Below are positions 3,160 through 64,000 of a DNA stretch of 64,000 bases, one piece after another. Each line of letters starts with the position of its first letter. Positions within the stretch are counted from its first letter, which is position 1. This stretch comes from Polycladomyces abyssicola. GTDB taxonomy: Bacteria; Bacillota; Bacilli; Thermoactinomycetales; JIR-001. Made by a program: the position numbers and the translations under genes. Below the pieces are notes generated by a model. It did not search any database, was not told where the DNA came from, and worked only from the letters and a program-made list of their open reading frames with translations. The stretch spans positions 918,001-982,000 of the forward strand of contig NZ_AP024601.1 of NCBI RefSeq assembly GCF_018326425.1, written 5' to 3'.

Positions 3160-3189
3160 AAAAAAGAAATTTTCTTCATATTATATCGG

Positions 3190-3470
3190 CTGTGAAGGAG
3201 AGGAGTAGGCAGTGCGCCCTTGACAGGGAGGAGGTGCCGCGACTGAAAGCACCTCCAGGAAGCGGCTCGCCGAAGTTCGCTCCGGAGCTGTCCCCTGAAC
3301 CAGAAAGTAGGGGGTACCGGCTGTGCTCGTTATCGCACGTAAAGCGGGATGACGAAGTTCAGGGCGTATCGGGTGATTCTGGCCGAATATCACGCCCAGG
3401 ATGTTTCGTTGTCCAAAAAGGGTGGTACCGCGAATCTCTCGTCCCTTTGGGCGCAGAGATTTTTTTATTA
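3190..3470 (+). promoter_or_regulatory. T-box leader (tRNA-Phe responsive) of pheST with terminator
   Basis: The invariant T-box sequence AGGGTGGTACCGCG is at 3419-3432. It is followed by a terminator stem (AATCTCT...AGAGATT around a CCC/GGG inner pairing) and a U run at 3460-3466. Stem I carries a hairpin with GGAGGTGC/GCACCTCC arms near 3230-3258. A TTC at 3276-3278, directly 5' of the closing strand GCTCC, fits a phenylalanine specifier codon. Uncharged tRNA-Phe should pair there and let transcription reach pheS. The specifier position is an inference; the T-box itself is unambiguous. Confidence 0.95.
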
Positions 3471-35782: not shown

Positions 35783-35836
35783 GCATGAAAACCTTGAAAA
35801 CAACTGAATCCAAAAGTTTTCCTCACTGCACACATG

Positions 35837-36093
35837 TGGAGTAGAGGTCGCGGAGCTTCAAGAGTACCTGTCGGGAGGGCCGGTCCCCGACGATCGGCAG
35901 GGAAAGGGGAGTCCGCCGAAGTTTCTCTCCTTGCCGGGAGGGGAGGAGCTGGGGTTGTCGCCGAACAGGGGCAACACTGTCACGGGAACATATCGCGTCC
36001 CGTGGAGCACTATCTCACAGGGGACAGGTGAGGCTGGACTTGCCGCGTGCATACACAAGGCGACAGCTGTCATCTCCGCTGTCGCCTTTTTGT
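35837..36093 (+). promoter_or_regulatory. Lysine riboswitch (L-box) with terminator
   Basis: The conserved L-box elements appear in order: AGAGGTCGCGG (35843 on), AGAGTA, GGGAAAGGGGAGTCCGCCGAAG, GGGGTTG, CTGTCACGGG and GTGGAGCACTATCT (to about 36014). A terminator follows with stem AGGCGACAGC/GCTGTCGCCT (36058-36067 with 36078-36087) and a T run. Lysine binding should favour termination and lower lysC expression. Confidence 0.95.
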
Positions 36094-42639: not shown

Positions 42640-42847
42640 TTCTTATCCAGAGCGGCGGAGGGACTGGCCCGATGAAGCCCGGCAACCACCCCGTTTACCT
42701 GTGTGCACCAAAAACACACATCAAACGGCGGGGAATGGTGCCAATTCCTGCAGAACCGACAGGTTCTGAGAGATGAGAAGGGGGACGGACTGCGATGGCA
42801 TGGGAGCAGACGACACCCTCTTCTGATCGAAGAGGGTGTTTCCTTTT
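42640..42847 (+). promoter_or_regulatory. SAM-I riboswitch (S-box) with terminator
   Basis: The canonical S-box elements are present: CTTATCCAGAGCGGCGGAGG, ACTGGCCCGATGAAGCCCGGCAACC, GGTGCCAATTCCTGCAG, and GAGAGATGAGAAG at the 3' strand of P1 (to 42780). A terminator follows: ACACCCTCTTC/GAAGAGGGTGT (42813-42823 with 42829-42839) and TTCCTTTT. SAM should cause termination and shut off metX. Confidence 0.97.
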
Positions 42848-58739: not shown

Positions 58740-58958
58740 TTGACCAACCAGAAAGGGAAGCCCCTGTTGACCAACAGGGAGAGGGAAGTGTTCGAATTAC
58801 TGGTCCAAGACAAGACCACCAAGGATATTGCTCAACAACTGTTTATCAGTGAAAAAACCGTCCGCAATCATATTTCGAACGTGATGCAGAAACTCAACGT
58901 AAAAGGACGGTCGCAGGCGGTTGTTGAACTTGTGCGATTAGGAGAGTTGAAAATCTGA
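58740..58958 (+). CDS. gerE: Late mother-cell sporulation regulator GerE
   Basis: A 72-residue LuxR-type helix-turn-helix protein made of the DNA-binding domain alone. KPLLTNREREVFELLVQDKTTK, ISEKTVRNHISNVMQKL and VKGRSQAVVELVRLGEL are nearly identical to B. subtilis GerE, which controls spore-coat genes. TTG start behind GAGGGGTGG. It lies downstream of sdhB as in B. subtilis, though much further away (about 11 kb). Confidence 0.95.
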   Translation: MTNQKGKPLLTNREREVFELLVQDKTTKDIAQQLFISEKTVRNHISNVMQKLNVKGRSQAVVELVRLGELKI

Positions 58959-59040: not shown

Positions 59041-59681
59041 TTCATAATAAATGAAGTATGCCCTCCATTAGGCTTACCGGTTTACCCGCATGGCTATGCG
59101 CCTTGAAGGCGGCGTCGGCGCAGATGTTTGTTATATAAGTCCGAACCGTGGAGCCGGTGCTTGGGTAAGCAATCAACTTGAGGATTACCCGGACAGTACC
59201 CGAGTAAAATTAATGTTTTGACGCCGGGGCTAGGGTTGGATTTGACCTGCCGAGGATCCGTCGATCCAATCCCGATGACCAGCCGGCTTTAGACCGGGGA
59301 TATTTGATTTATGAGCTCTTAACGCTTCGTTGGTTTTGAAGCGGAAGACGGCTACAGCATCTGGTCCCCCATGATCCACTTGTTGAATTACCTTTTGAAT
59401 TCTGGCTGCGTGTCGGTTACCGCAACCCGATAAGTACGCAGGTAAGTACGTGGAACCTGATCAATACAAGGATATTTCCATTACCCCTTTTAGAATTGTT
59501 CAAGAAAATTTCACGAAATTGTCAAAGATAATTCTTGAAATAGTAATCGAATCTAATGTTTAGGTTCTATCATAATAACGGAGGAGTTCATCGATATTGG
59601 GTAATGATAAATTGCCTCAATGTCATGACTTCTCAATATATGGTCGGGATGGATAACTAGTATTGCCAAATGCTAGTGATT
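59041..59681 (+). other. Long structured non-coding region upstream of the formate dehydrogenase gene
   Basis: About 640 bp with no credible gene but many pairings. GTCC/GGAC (59139-59142 with 59191-59194) encloses GGGTAA/TTACCC (59163-59168 with 59185-59190) and an ACCG/GGT hairpin, a three-way-junction shape. GCCGG/CCGGC (59223-59227 with 59283-59287) encloses a 9-bp GGGTTGGAT/ATCCAATCC stem with one G-U pair. A CGCTTC/GAAGCG hairpin lies at 59323-59343, and TAAGTACG is repeated at 59431 and 59443. No known riboswitch consensus was recognised. Confidence 0.45.
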
Positions 59682-59744
59682 AACCCACCATAAAACAATT
59701 TGTGTGTCCGTTTACACAAGTTGTTTTATGGTGGGTTTTATATT
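59682..59744 (+). terminator. Strong hairpin/attenuator directly before the formate dehydrogenase gene
   Basis: AACCCACCATAAAACAA (59682-59698) pairs perfectly with 59721-59737. The stem continues with one U-G pair and TTGTGT/ACACAA, about 24 bp in all with an 8-nt loop, and is followed by TTATATTT. It ends 8 bp before the ribosome site, so it can stop or delay transcription into the operon. Confidence 0.75.
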
Positions 59745-59760
59745 TAAAGGAGGATCTACC

Positions 59761-62715
59761 GTGAAGAAGAAAGTGAGTGTTCGAATTAATGGAGTGTTAC
59801 ATGAGATAGAAGAAGGTACTCGAATTCTCGACTACCTTTTGCAGCAAAAAATCGAACATCCACATATTTGCTATTCGCCTACATTAGGTCCAATTCAAAC
59901 CTGTGATACGTGCATGTGTGAGATAGACGGAAAAATTATGCGGGCATGCTCTACATACGTGGAAGAAGGGATGAATATCTTAACTTCCTCAGAACGGGCA
60001 AAAGCCGCACAGATCGAAGCTATGGACCGTATTTTGGAAAACCACTTGTTGTATTGTACGGTTTGCGACAATAACAACGGCAATTGCCGAGTTCATAATA
60101 CGGCGGAACTTTTGGAGATCGAGCATCAAACACGGCCGTTTCGAGAAAAAGGTTATGAAGTGGATATGTCCCATCCTTTTTATCGATACGATCCTAATCA
60201 ATGTATTCTTTGTGGGCGTTGTGTGGAAGTATGTCAAGATCTGCAAGTAAATGAAACGTTGACAATTGATTGGGAGCGAGACATTCCACGAGTAATTTGG
60301 GATGACGACAAACCCATCAACGAATCTTCCTGTGTATCTTGTGGACAATGTGTGACGGTTTGTCCATGTAATGCCTTGATGGAAAAATCGATGCTAGGGG
60401 AAGCCGGTTTTATGACGGGAATAAAAAAAGATCTGCTTAATCCTATGATTGATTTTGTGAAAAAAGTAGAACCCGGCTATAGTGGAATTTTTGCAATTTC
60501 GGAAATTGAAGCGGCGATGCGGGACACTCGTACAAGAAAAACGAAAACCGTATGTACCTTCTGCGGGGTGGGTTGCTCGTTTGAAGTGTGGACCAAAGGA
60601 CGTAAGATTTTGAAAATTGAACCCACAGAACAAGCGCCTGTAAATAGTATTTCAACCTGCGTTAAAGGAAAGTTTGGATGGGATTTTATCAACAGTGATC
60701 ATCGCCTTACCACGCCTTTGATTAGGAGAGGAGATGAGTTTGTTTCTGCAACATGGGATGAAGCACTTAAATTGATTGCTGAAAAAATGGGTGCGATTAA
60801 GCAAACTTACGGCGGCAACGCGCTTGGATTCATAAGTTCATCTAAAACAACGAACGAAGAAGCTTATCTGATGCAAAAATTGGCACGTCAGGTGTTTGAA
60901 ACGAACAATATTGACAACTGTTCGCGTTATTGTCAATCGCCTGCGACCGACGGGCTGCTTGCAACCGTTGGGTATGGCGGGGATTCCGGTACGATTAAAG
61001 ACATCGCAAGCGCGGGGCTTGTCATCATTATCGGTGCAAACCCAACCGAAGGCCATCCAGTTCTGGCAACCCGAGTCAAACGCGCAAAGAAACTAAACGG
61101 TCAGAAATTAATTGTCGCGGATCTTCGAAAACATGAAATGGCAGATCGGGCTGATCTGTTCTTGCGTCCAAAACAAGGAACTGACTTCGTCTGGTTGACT
61201 GCCGTTGCCAAGTATATGATTGATCAGGGATGGCATGACGAAGAATTTATCAGAAATCGTGTGAACAATTTCGATAAATATCTCAAATTCCTTAAGAAAT
61301 ACACACTTAAATATGCGGAGGAAGTCACTGGTCTATCAAAAGAGCAATTAATCCAAACGGCCAAAATGATTCACGAAGCCGATGGCACATGCATCTTGTG
61401 GGGAATGGGTGTTACCCAGAATATTGCGGGTTCCCACACATCGGCAGCGATTTCCAATCTCTTGCTGGTTACGGGAAACTACGGACGTCATGGAGCCGGT
61501 GCATTCCCTCTCCGGGGACATAACAACGTACAAGGCGCTTGTGACATGGGTACGCTTCCTGAGTGGCTCCCGGGCTATCAGCATATTTCGGATGATATGG
61601 CTCGAGCTAAATTTGAAAAGGCGTATGGAGTGAAGATCTCTAATAAACCGGGACTAACGAACATTGAAATGCTGGAAGCGGTGGAGAAAGGCGAGCTCAA
61701 AGCGATGTATCTGATCGGAGAAGACATGGCCTGGGTGGATTCAAACGCGCATCATGTGCATGACACGCTCAGCAAACTTGACTTCTTTGTCGTACAGGAT
61801 GTCTTCTTTACAAAAACTGCACAATTTGCGGATGTTGTCCTGCCTGCCGCTCCGTCACTTGAGAAAGATGGAACCTTTACAAACACAGAGCGACGCATTC
61901 AGCGTTTGTATCAGGCACTTGAACCCTTGGGAGAATCAAAACCTGACTGGTGGATCATCCAGCAAGTTGCAAATCATATGGGAGCGGACTGGAATTACCA
62001 GCATCCAAGTGAAATTATGGATGAAATTGCAAGTCTTTGTCCTATTTATGAGGGGGTATCGTATGAACGTCTTGAGGGTTGGAACAGTTTAATATGGCCT
62101 GTGCAAAAAGACGGTACGGATGAACCGCTTCTTTACACGGAGCGCTTTAACTTCCCAGACGGTAAAGCGCGACTTTCTCTCGCAGAATACGTTCCCCCAG
62201 TCGAATTTCCGCGGGAATTTGATTTAACAGTGAACAACGGCCGACTCTTGGAACATTTCCATGAAGGAAATATGACCAACAAGTCTAAGGGAATTCAATA
62301 CAAATTACCCGATGTGTTTGTGGAAGTTTCACCTGAGCTTGCACGGGAACGCGGTGTAAAAGACGGCTCATTAGTGCGTTTGGTTTCGCCTTATGGTGCG
62401 ATTAAGCTTCGTGCGGTGGTGACCGATCGAGTAAAAGGGAAGGAACTGTATGTTCCAATGCACTCGGTAAGCCATGAAAATGCGATCAACGTCTTAACGG
62501 GAAATGCTGTCGATGTTCGAACGCAAACACCTGCGTATAAGCAAATTAAGGTGCGTATGGAAGTCCTGGAAGTTGAAGGGGTTGTCCCGCTTCCGATGCA
62601 CAATCCCCGCTACGCAAAACGTAACCCGCAACTGGGTGTACAAGTAGAGCGGAAATGGGCCCGAAAAGATTATGAGCCGATTGCAGACATTAATGTGGCA
62701 GGGGGAAAAGAATAA
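59761..62715 (+). CDS. Formate dehydrogenase alpha subunit (cytoplasmic, Mo-bisPGD, YrhE/YjgC-like)
   Basis: A 984-residue molybdoenzyme with a NuoG-like N-terminal arm. It has a [2Fe-2S] ferredoxin region (CYSPTLGPIQTCDTCMCEI...C), a CTVCDNNNGNC segment, and two [4Fe-4S] motifs (CILCGRCVEVCQ; CVSCGQCVTVCPC). Then come the catalytic-domain cluster CTFCGVGC and the Mo site NCSRYCQSPATDG, where Cys replaces selenocysteine, and a C-terminal dinucleotide-binding domain. No twin-arginine signal, so it is cytosolic. GTG 59761 is 8 nt after AAAGGAGG; the frame upstream lies in the attenuator hairpin. About 40 % G+C, well below the rest of the window. Needs MobA and FdhD, both encoded in this window. 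Confidence 0.92.
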   Translation: MKKKVSVRINGVLHEIEEGTRILDYLLQQKIEHPHICYSPTLGPIQTCDTCMCEIDGKIMRACSTYVEEGMNILTSSERAKAAQIEAMDRILENHLLYCTVCDNNNGNCRVHNTAELLEIEHQTRPFREKGYEVDMSHPFYRYDPNQCILCGRCVEVCQDLQVNETLTIDWERDIPRVIWDDDKPINESSCVSCGQCVTVCPCNALMEKSMLGEAGFMTGIKKDLLNPMIDFVKKVEPGYSGIFAISEIEAAMRDTRTRKTKTVCTFCGVGCSFEVWTKGRKILKIEPTEQAPVNSISTCVKGKFGWDFINSDHRLTTPLIRRGDEFVSATWDEALKLIAEKMGAIKQTYGGNALGFISSSKTTNEEAYLMQKLARQVFETNNIDNCSRYCQSPATDGLLATVGYGGDSGTIKDIASAGLVIIIGANPTEGHPVLATRVKRAKKLNGQKLIVADLRKHEMADRADLFLRPKQGTDFVWLTAVAKYMIDQGWHDEEFIRNRVNNFDKYLKFLKKYTLKYAEEVTGLSKEQLIQTAKMIHEADGTCILWGMGVTQNIAGSHTSAAISNLLLVTGNYGRHGAGAFPLRGHNNVQGACDMGTLPEWLPGYQHISDDMARAKFEKAYGVKISNKPGLTNIEMLEAVEKGELKAMYLIGEDMAWVDSNAHHVHDTLSKLDFFVVQDVFFTKTAQFADVVLPAAPSLEKDGTFTNTERRIQRLYQALEPLGESKPDWWIIQQVANHMGADWNYQHPSEIMDEIASLCPIYEGVSYERLEGWNSLIWPVQKDGTDEPLLYTERFNFPDGKARLSLAEYVPPVEFPREFDLTVNNGRLLEHFHEGNMTNKSKGIQYKLPDVFVEVSPELARERGVKDGSLVRLVSPYGAIKLRAVVTDRVKGKELYVPMHSVSHENAINVLTGNAVDVRTQTPAYKQIKVRMEVLEVEGVVPLPMHNPRYAKRNPQLGVQVERKWARKDYEPIADINVAGGKE

Positions 62716-63194
62716 TGGCAAAACCAATAACCAATATTGCCAAATCTGCTCCAACCGAAGAAGAAAAAAGAGAGAAAACGCTCGAAACTGTCATTGAAGA
62801 TATAGCGCAAAATGCGGATAGCATCCGGCAAACAATTAAACTGCTCCAAGAACTCCACGATAGTGGAATTCTTGGAGCCCTTAACGCTATTATCGAAGCG
62901 AGAGAGGAGGTGGCCAAAATCCTGATGGGACAGATGGTGCGTCCTCCTGTTACAAATATGATTAACAATGCAATGGCGGTAGCCGGAGCGTTGACAGAGA
63001 TTGATCCGGATATGACAAAAAAGCTGATGGGAAGTGTAACGAAAGGTCTTCAAAAAGCAGAGGAGGGACTTCGTTCAAATGAAAAGGTTGGGCTTTTCGA
63101 ATTGATGAAAGCATTACGGGATCCTGACATAAACCGTGCAATAGGCTTTGGTCTTAACTTTTTGAAAGGAATCGGAGAAGGCTTGAAGGAGTAA
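62715..63194 (+). CDS. DUF1641 protein (YrhD/YjgD-like)
   Basis: A 159-residue helical protein (DIAQNADSIRQTIKLLQELHDSGILGALNAIIEAREEVAKIL; GLFELMKALRDPDINRAIGFGLNFLKGIGEGL), the DUF1641 pattern. Its gene overlaps the fdh stop (TAATG), and the same pair occurs in B. subtilis (yrhE-yrhD, yjgC-yjgD), so it is very likely an accessory or second subunit of the formate dehydrogenase. The molecular role is not established. Confidence 0.88.
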   Translation: MAKPITNIAKSAPTEEEKREKTLETVIEDIAQNADSIRQTIKLLQELHDSGILGALNAIIEAREEVAKILMGQMVRPPVTNMINNAMAVAGALTEIDPDMTKKLMGSVTKGLQKAEEGLRSNEKVGLFELMKALRDPDINRAIGFGLNFLKGIGEGLKE

Positions 63195-63271
63195 GTAAAT
63201 CAAGTTCGCCATAACGGTGGATATGGTCATCTCTTTGTAAAGTCGATACCTATTGTGGTTGTCTGTCGTGA

Positions 63272-63314
63272 TTCTCGTACGGATGATCAGCTAGATCATG
63301 CTGAGAGACGAGAG
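63272..63314 (+). other. Nested hairpin covering the DUF2294 ribosome site
   Basis: TCTCGT (63273-63278) pairs with ACGAGA (63308-63313), enclosing an ATGATC/GATCAT stem. The 3' arm overlaps the AGAGGG ribosome site of the DUF2294 gene, so folding could reduce its translation. Confidence 0.4.
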
Positions 63315-63326
63315 GGATGAAATGGT

Positions 63327-63686
63327 ATGAAAAAAATCGAACATCAATTTAGCATGTTGGTACGCGAAATACGTAAAGAATACGTCGGTAACGGTCCGAG
63401 AGAGATTACCACCCGTTTTGTAGGATCATGGGCCATTAGTGAAATGAAAGGGAATCTGACGAATGTAGAAAAATTTATGATCAGTTCGCGAGAAGGCAAG
63501 AGAATGGTGCATAAAGCGCGAACTGAATTAGTGAAGAAGATCTATAAAAATCCCGAGATCTTAGCGAAATTTGAGGAACTTGTAGGAGCAAAAATTTTGA
63601 GGATCTTTTCAGATATCAGTATCGAAGAAGATATCGCGATGACGATATTTGTTTTTGATAAGCCCCTTGATTCTAAAACGACATAA
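63327..63686 (+). CDS. DUF2294 family protein
   Basis: A 119-residue cytosolic protein. The pattern MVREIRKEYVGNGPREITTRFVGSW, followed by VEKFMISSREGKRMVHKARTELVKK and a late FSDISIEEDIAMTIFVFD, is characteristic of DUF2294. This family is repeatedly found beside formate dehydrogenase genes in Bacillus relatives. Function unknown. ATG with an AGAGGG site. It has its own 130-bp leader after the DUF1641 gene. Confidence 0.85.
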   Translation: MKKIEHQFSMLVREIRKEYVGNGPREITTRFVGSWAISEMKGNLTNVEKFMISSREGKRMVHKARTELVKKIYKNPEILAKFEELVGAKILRIFSDISIEEDIAMTIFVFDKPLDSKTT

Positions 63687-63720
63687 CTAACGAACATTAC
63701 CAGGGAAGGTAGAGAGATTC

Positions 63721-64000
63721 GTGAACCGACCAGTATATATTTCACGCCAAGTATTACATTATGAAAATAATCGCATAAGTGAGGTAGATGATTGGATTGT
63801 TACGGAGTATCCCATTACTATCATGTTAGACCAACAAGAGTTCGCGACATTGGTTTGCACTCCGGAATATCTGGAAGATTTAGTAATCGGATTTTTGGCA
63901 TCAGAAGGTGTGATCAATAGTTACAAGGATATTAAAGACATCTTAATCGTGGATACAACCGGGCGTGCTTATGTAGATACCCATAATGTAAATAAATTTA
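63721..64000 (+). CDS. fdhD: Formate dehydrogenase accessory sulfurtransferase FdhD (partial, cut by window end)
   Basis: An open frame from GTG 63721 to the window edge, 93 codons: MNRPVYISRQVLHYENN..., then the FdhD pattern IMLDQQEFATLVCTPEYLEDLVIGFLASEGVI. FdhD carries sulfur from a cysteine desulfurase to the molybdenum cofactor of formate dehydrogenase. The conserved catalytic Cys pair would lie beyond the window. A GGGAAGG site lies upstream of the start. Last gene of the formate dehydrogenase cluster that can be seen. Confidence 0.88.
   Translation, partial: MNRPVYISRQVLHYENNRISEVDDWIVTEYPITIMLDQQEFATLVCTPEYLEDLVIGFLASEGVINSYKDIKDILIVDTTGRAYVDTHNVNKF

Follow-up and report, generated by a model that had tools for sequence, protein, structure and literature searches.

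Several described leader systems resemble the one studied here. RAT elements are short imperfect hairpins with an internal loop that overlap the 5′ arm of a terminator and are stabilised by a protein, the gene of which is often linked. The leader of the formate dehydrogenase (fdh) operon of Polycladomyces abyssicola resembles the RAT elements of LicT, SacY and BglG (bglG-cis-reg, RF03530, and kin) in that an imperfect hairpin overlaps the terminator 5′ arm, but its core differs from theirs in sequence and length. No match to bglG-cis-reg was obtained at the gathering score, one related leader (L064) reaching 28.8 bits versus 80 and the window giving no match. The targets of ANTAR proteins consist of two hairpins with hexaloops. 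With the ANTAR systems (EutV, NasR) our leader shares the metabolic operon, antitermination and a linked regulator, whereas it forms one long interrupted helix, and its upstream hairpin (P1) is dispensable in distant leaders. Like the Moco RNA motif, the leader is found ahead of molybdoenzyme and moa genes, but its core also precedes a metal-free enzyme. The yrhE (forCE2) leader of Bacillus subtilis is likened to ours by gene, a same-family fdh lying downstream, and not by sequence. In the available part of Table 2 of PMC3574147, the first row and the top Hfq ratio (170) belong to a 139-nt B. subtilis RNA designated "new sRNA or yrhE leader region", which counts in favour of antitermination control of fdh, and the yrhE upstream region is among the scored candidates in the available text of PMC4448311. 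Excerpts of PMC8808070 describe the B. subtilis forCE operons as seemingly unexpressed in anaerobic, fermentative and formate conditions, which cuts against simple formate induction in that organism. Nothing like the element appears in the available parts of PMC11109978, PMC8632094 and PMC11124144, and no "formate riboswitch" was found in a literature scope lying largely outside subscription papers.

We analysed a stretch of 64,000 nucleotides, hereafter the window, in which the functional leader is the segment 59584-59744, about 160 nt in length. Comparison of related sequences identifies it as an antitermination leader that belongs to formate dehydrogenase genes and shows covariation; we found no name for it. 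Rfam covariance models run against this and related leaders matched no family, and the sequence-only reading of a regulated-looking attenuator outside the Rfam families ahead of fdh was thus borne out. A T-box was considered and rejected, as the leader received no Rfam T-box score and UGG was not conserved across leaders. Elsewhere in the window, a lysine riboswitch (35834-36020), a T-box leader (3183-3449) and a SAM riboswitch (42640-42779) reached the Rfam gathering score. The features of the locus are as follows.

59090..59215, + strand: C-terminal remnant of a NucA/NucB-type DNase gene (tblastn, 36/44 identical residues, 2e-20); outside the switch
59367..59482, + strand: frameshifted C-terminal remnant of an SNase-family (thermonuclease) gene (tblastn 4e-11, two frames); outside the switch
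59568..59573, + strand: −10-like TATCAT of the presumed leader promoter, placed by comparison with related leaders
59587..59629, + strand: P1 hairpin, from covariation in relatives
59639..59692, + strand: antiterminator core, from prefix folding and descriptor models R1 and R2 (R2 match at 59640-59694)
59682..59744, + strand: intrinsic terminator of 24 bp with T-rich tail (arms 59682-59705 and 59714-59737)
59746..59753, + strand: ribosome-binding site of fdh, AAAGGAGG
59761..62715, + strand: formate dehydrogenase alpha subunit, ForC/YrhE type (TIGR01591, 6e-264)
62715..63194, + strand: DUF1641 protein, ForE type (PF07849, 6.5e-18)
63327..63686, + strand: PF10057 (DUF2294/MpsC) protein, candidate trans-acting antiterminator (3.2e-32; co-occurrence)
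63721..64000, + strand: start of fdhD, running off the window (PF02634, 2.4e-16)

The upstream half of the region had been read as part of a 640-bp gene-free leader with nested stems. This did not hold, since 59090-59482 consists largely of the remains of two decayed nuclease genes. Relatives of the first remnant gave a weak PF14040 match, and the relative of the second is PF00565. The proposed three-way junction at 59139-59194 falls within the DNase remnant (folding z −0.67; 46/200 shuffles fold as well), and the proposed double stem at 59223-59287 sits between both remnants (z −0.76; 42/200), so that neither stood. Folding z-scores against shuffles were likewise unremarkable for 59090-59221 (−0.12), 59222-59350 (0.06) and 59345-59481 (0.49), and the value of −4.5 for the whole 704-nt stretch was contributed by its last ~160 nt. 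No RNA element is present upstream of about 59500. Searches with the region upstream of the hairpin returned dispersed partial copies in the same and related genomes; a mobile or repeat element was considered as its identity and discarded when the repeats turned out to be nuclease genes. The congener G001 also carries NucA/NucB-type and SNase-family nuclease genes or pieces of them (L024 2561-2980, − strand; L025 2249-2527, + strand; L024 4996-5688, − strand), and the genome to which the window belongs has scattered partial copies as well. Just 5′ of the remnants, 58740-58958 encodes a GerE/LuxR-type helix-turn-helix protein of 72 aa that stands alone, and a terminator-like hairpin follows its gene.

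The remaining 160 nt behaved differently from shuffled sequence, with a folding z of −4.0 for 59584-59683 and of −7.9 for 59636-59744, where 0/200 shuffles folded as well. TATAAT occurred within the corresponding first 90 nt of 35 of 40 related leader cut-outs. In P1, both sides had changed in 8 of 16 pairs in the unfitted alignment A2 (15 leaders) and in 15 of 16 pairs in A3 (42 distinct rows), an alignment fitted to R1. The 24-bp hairpin noticed from the letters alone was confirmed, its 24-nt arms being 96% complementary around an 8-nt loop, as was the T-rich tail followed by the ribosome site upstream of the fdh GTG start at 59761. The terminator arms change jointly between leaders (CCCACC/GGUGGG, CCCGCC/GGCGGG), with one G-U version in L069, as read from the arms. 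An intrinsic-terminator hairpin with T tract hence lies between the first gene and a promoter that was placed by comparison only.

The antiterminator core is a long interrupted helix, the 3′ strand of which (CCCACCAUA in the window) doubles as the terminator 5′ arm. Prefix folding of the window leader gave the antiterminator as the minimum-energy fold for prefixes ending at 59690-59713, and the terminator by 59737, once the terminator 3′ arm is made; when the whole leader is folded, the P1 5′ strand is paired to the core. The antiterminator carries mismatches whereas the terminator has none, as expected for a helix that needs help. In A2 (15 leaders), 14 pairs of the drawn structures had changed on both sides, compared with 7.7 pairs for shuffles and 4-7 for slid versions, the slid controls being beaten partly by construction, as the structures were drawn from seed sequences. 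The R1-fitted A3 (42 distinct rows) showed changes on both sides in 22 pairs. The lower stem is imperfect in the window group, where two of nine pairs are broken, in 6/15 and 8/15 leaders, respectively, which counts against the switch. Covariation among the leaders of relatives, proposed earlier as a check, was thus found for both P1 and the antiterminator, and together with prefix folding it reveals a conserved alternative fold incompatible with the terminator, as in an attenuator.

The spread of the core was followed with descriptor models, the seeds of which (R1-R3) were picked by hand or pattern. Alignment A1 was seeded with 31 of 40 leaders, nine near-duplicates having been dropped; A2 comprised 15 of those 31, A6 12 and A9 10. 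R1 was built from 15 rows, and R2 from 12 paralogue leaders with the window group excluded. Among 79 fdh loci, the 39 closest ones from named genomes (L047-L084, L095) align with the window across the −10 box, P1, core and terminator, L048 weakly, and a Marinithermofilum abyssi contig (G009, L055) carries the same operon and retains the last ~160 nt of the leader. At E ≤ 6.4e-6, R1 picked up 39 of the 80 sources, window included, and it matched 25 of 398 class genomes (E up to 0.1). One match, in G393 (E 6e-4), was read as chance, since it precedes a phosphate-transport-like operon (by eye) and lacks the core. The single R2 match in the 64 kb was the window core itself (59640-59694, E 1.5e-4), and at E up to 0.05 the model had matches in 54 of the 398 class genomes, weak or antisense ones included. 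Most leaders of distant fdh paralogues lack P1 and keep GGAUUGG-n-AGYA-loop-UGCU-n-CUAYUCC overlapping the terminator; by eye, this core was seen in 31 of 40 fetched leaders, two of them weak. A strict core pattern occurred 49 times in 1.44 Mb of loci, chosen around such leaders, and not once in ten block-shuffled copies. R3 missed the window, left L318 unscored and showed covariation not above expectation, all of which counts against the switch; over 398 phylum genomes it gave four weak matches, all judged to be chance. At the sensitivity of R3, the core looks confined to Bacilli. Among 13 R2 loci inspected away from fdh, L270 and L272 were dismissed as chance; in L262 a degenerate gene follows, and in L269 core and terminator are followed by a short, unassigned gene. 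Of the copies in G333, the third (L184) is degenerate.

Across Bacilli the core precedes molybdenum FDH genes. It also lies ahead of fdhD-moaA in Neobacillus massiliamazoniensis (L064) and Fictibacillus gelatini (L058), and ahead of moaA-moeA, genes named by eye, in G141 and G171. Furthermore, it precedes the NAD-dependent, metal-free formate dehydrogenase of putative staphylococci (G243, G169, G179, G418, G409, G428), the genus Staphylococcus being our inference for these genomes. There the element falls in two gene lineages, with a textbook terminator in G409/G428 (L301/L302). R2/R3 give a score at only 6 of the 30 NAD-FDH loci of staphylococci, which counts against the reading. The molybdenum and NAD-dependent enzymes share a substrate but have separate ancestries and different cofactors. 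The presence of one core before two unrelated enzymes with a common substrate makes formate the economical common factor. Core and terminator were also found ahead of UPF0126/PF03458 "glycine transporter" genes (L185, L186, L260, L261, L264, L267; one scanned), which are possible formate or one-carbon transporters. At L263 (reverse strand, 928-981 of the reverse complement), they stand before a PsiE gene, after which comes a gene for an Mrp-like ATPase. Formate does not explain the UPF0126/PF03458 and PsiE contexts, which counts against a formate switch. In the window, GC at the leader and fdh operon (59400-64000) drops from about 0.56 to 0.33-0.44. This drop, along with the absence of both element and PF10057 from the congeners G001 and G002, which carry another fdh, suggests that the operon was horizontally acquired beside nuclease debris.

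The protein most consistently associated with the element is PF10057. Of the 77 genomes matched by R1 or R2, 55 were checked for it and all 55 encode it, compared with 22 of 56 genomes that no model matched (Fisher 7e-14), the latter comprising 13 of 23 genomes with fdh and 9 of 33 without. In 51 of the 55 it is linked to the fdh locus: divergent beside the element in 28 genomes, just upstream in 10, downstream in the operon in 11, and adjoining fdh in G141 and G171. The four genomes in which it is unlinked (G035, G062, G144, G174) and its frequent occurrence without the element (22/56) count against a switch operated by PF10057. Among 25 fdh loci of the 23 fdh-bearing genomes that no model matched, PF10057 stands beside fdh only in L311 and L318. 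By eye, both leaders read GGUUGG...GGUAC...GUGCU...CUAACC followed by a terminator; no model scores them. Core-like leaders of G061 and G080 were seen by eye only, R2 and R3 giving no score. As a predictor of the core, PF10057 in an operon with fdhD/fdh failed in G003 and G111. In 61 putative staphylococci, FDH-type PF10057, split off by score (about 62-102 bits versus at least 118) and place, tracks NAD-FDH (26/28 versus 2/33), and the two co-occur although unlinked in G404, G409, G411, G413, G428 and G436. Since PF10057 partners both molybdenum and metal-free FDH, it is more likely to be a regulator than a factor for assembly. Structure searches with its confident model (pLDDT 91) ranked no solved structure clearly, and no RNA-binding relative stood among the matches, which excludes nothing; its sequence matched no solved structure below E 0.36. 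Several class genomes additionally encode PF10057 in tandem, as proteins with two domains and about 230-290 residues. In the available portion of PMC6689103, deletion of the paralogue mpsC in S. aureus gave no growth phenotype, which also counts against the proposed role. Nevertheless, PF10057 appears to be the best candidate for a trans-acting antiterminator. The earlier suggestion of an RNA sensor thus stands as regards the attenuator, while the PF10057 link makes a protein acting in trans at least as plausible as a self-sensing RNA.

On balance we favour, at slightly better than even confidence, a formate-linked antitermination switch on the fdh operon, probably worked by PF10057. Transcription would start near 59580, so that P1 is made first and the antiterminator core next. 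By default the 24-bp terminator would form and halt transcription ahead of fdh, whereas stabilisation of the core would hold the terminator 5′ arm and allow the operon to be transcribed, if we have the direction of the response right. The signal may be formate itself or a closely connected factor. Stabilisation of the core would most likely come from the operon-encoded PF10057 protein, presumably through RNA contact, in the manner of LicT/SacY or HutP. The wider proposal, that PF10057 constitutes a new RNA-binding antiterminator family responding to formate, with one core across Bacilli serving two non-homologous FDHs and cofactor genes, we advance tentatively, at a little short of even chances.

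The main rival is a direct riboswitch, in which the core, together with P1 in the fdh group, would bind formate or a formate-linked metabolite while PF10057 has another formate-related job. Near-invariant bases in the core helices and internal loop, the compact size and the use of one core over two non-homologous FDHs would all suit such an RNA. We nonetheless hold it to be unlikely, though deserving of serious weight, as PF10057 co-occurs in 55/55 genomes, often divergent beside the element, and the lack of P1 in most distant leaders would reduce the common sensor to only about 45 nt. Antitermination might instead depend on an unrelated protein, for example a LicT-like or ANTAR one, or follow a general redox or acid signal, and PF10057 would then be a mere bystander in formate metabolism; the RAT-like layout and the sub-threshold bglG-cis-reg score of one leader are compatible with this, and acid and benzoate raise FDH genes in B. 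subtilis according to excerpts of PMC2788229. Given that no other regulator was seen to be consistently linked, whereas PF10057 is in 51/55 genomes, we regard this as improbable. A molybdenum-cofactor or molybdate sensor for molybdoenzyme genes, which the sequence-only reading had raised and which the fdh, fdhD-moaA and moaA-moeA contexts would fit, is very improbable, since Moco_RNA_motif was unmatched both at the gathering score and at E up to 10 and the core also stands before the metal-free NAD-FDH. Finally, a plain unregulated terminator insulating a horizontally acquired operon would agree with the strong terminator-like hairpin on both strands and the GC shift, but is equally hard to credit, given its place between a conserved −10 box and fdh and the conserved, covarying alternative structure overlapping its 5′ arm.

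If the PF10057 reading is true, Bacilli would possess a dedicated RNA-level control for formate, a central one-carbon metabolite, and the uncharacterised PF10057 family would gain its first concrete role. The UPF0126 genes under the core would become candidate formate or one-carbon transporters, and the switch would perhaps account for the Hfq enrichment of the B. subtilis yrhE leader region.
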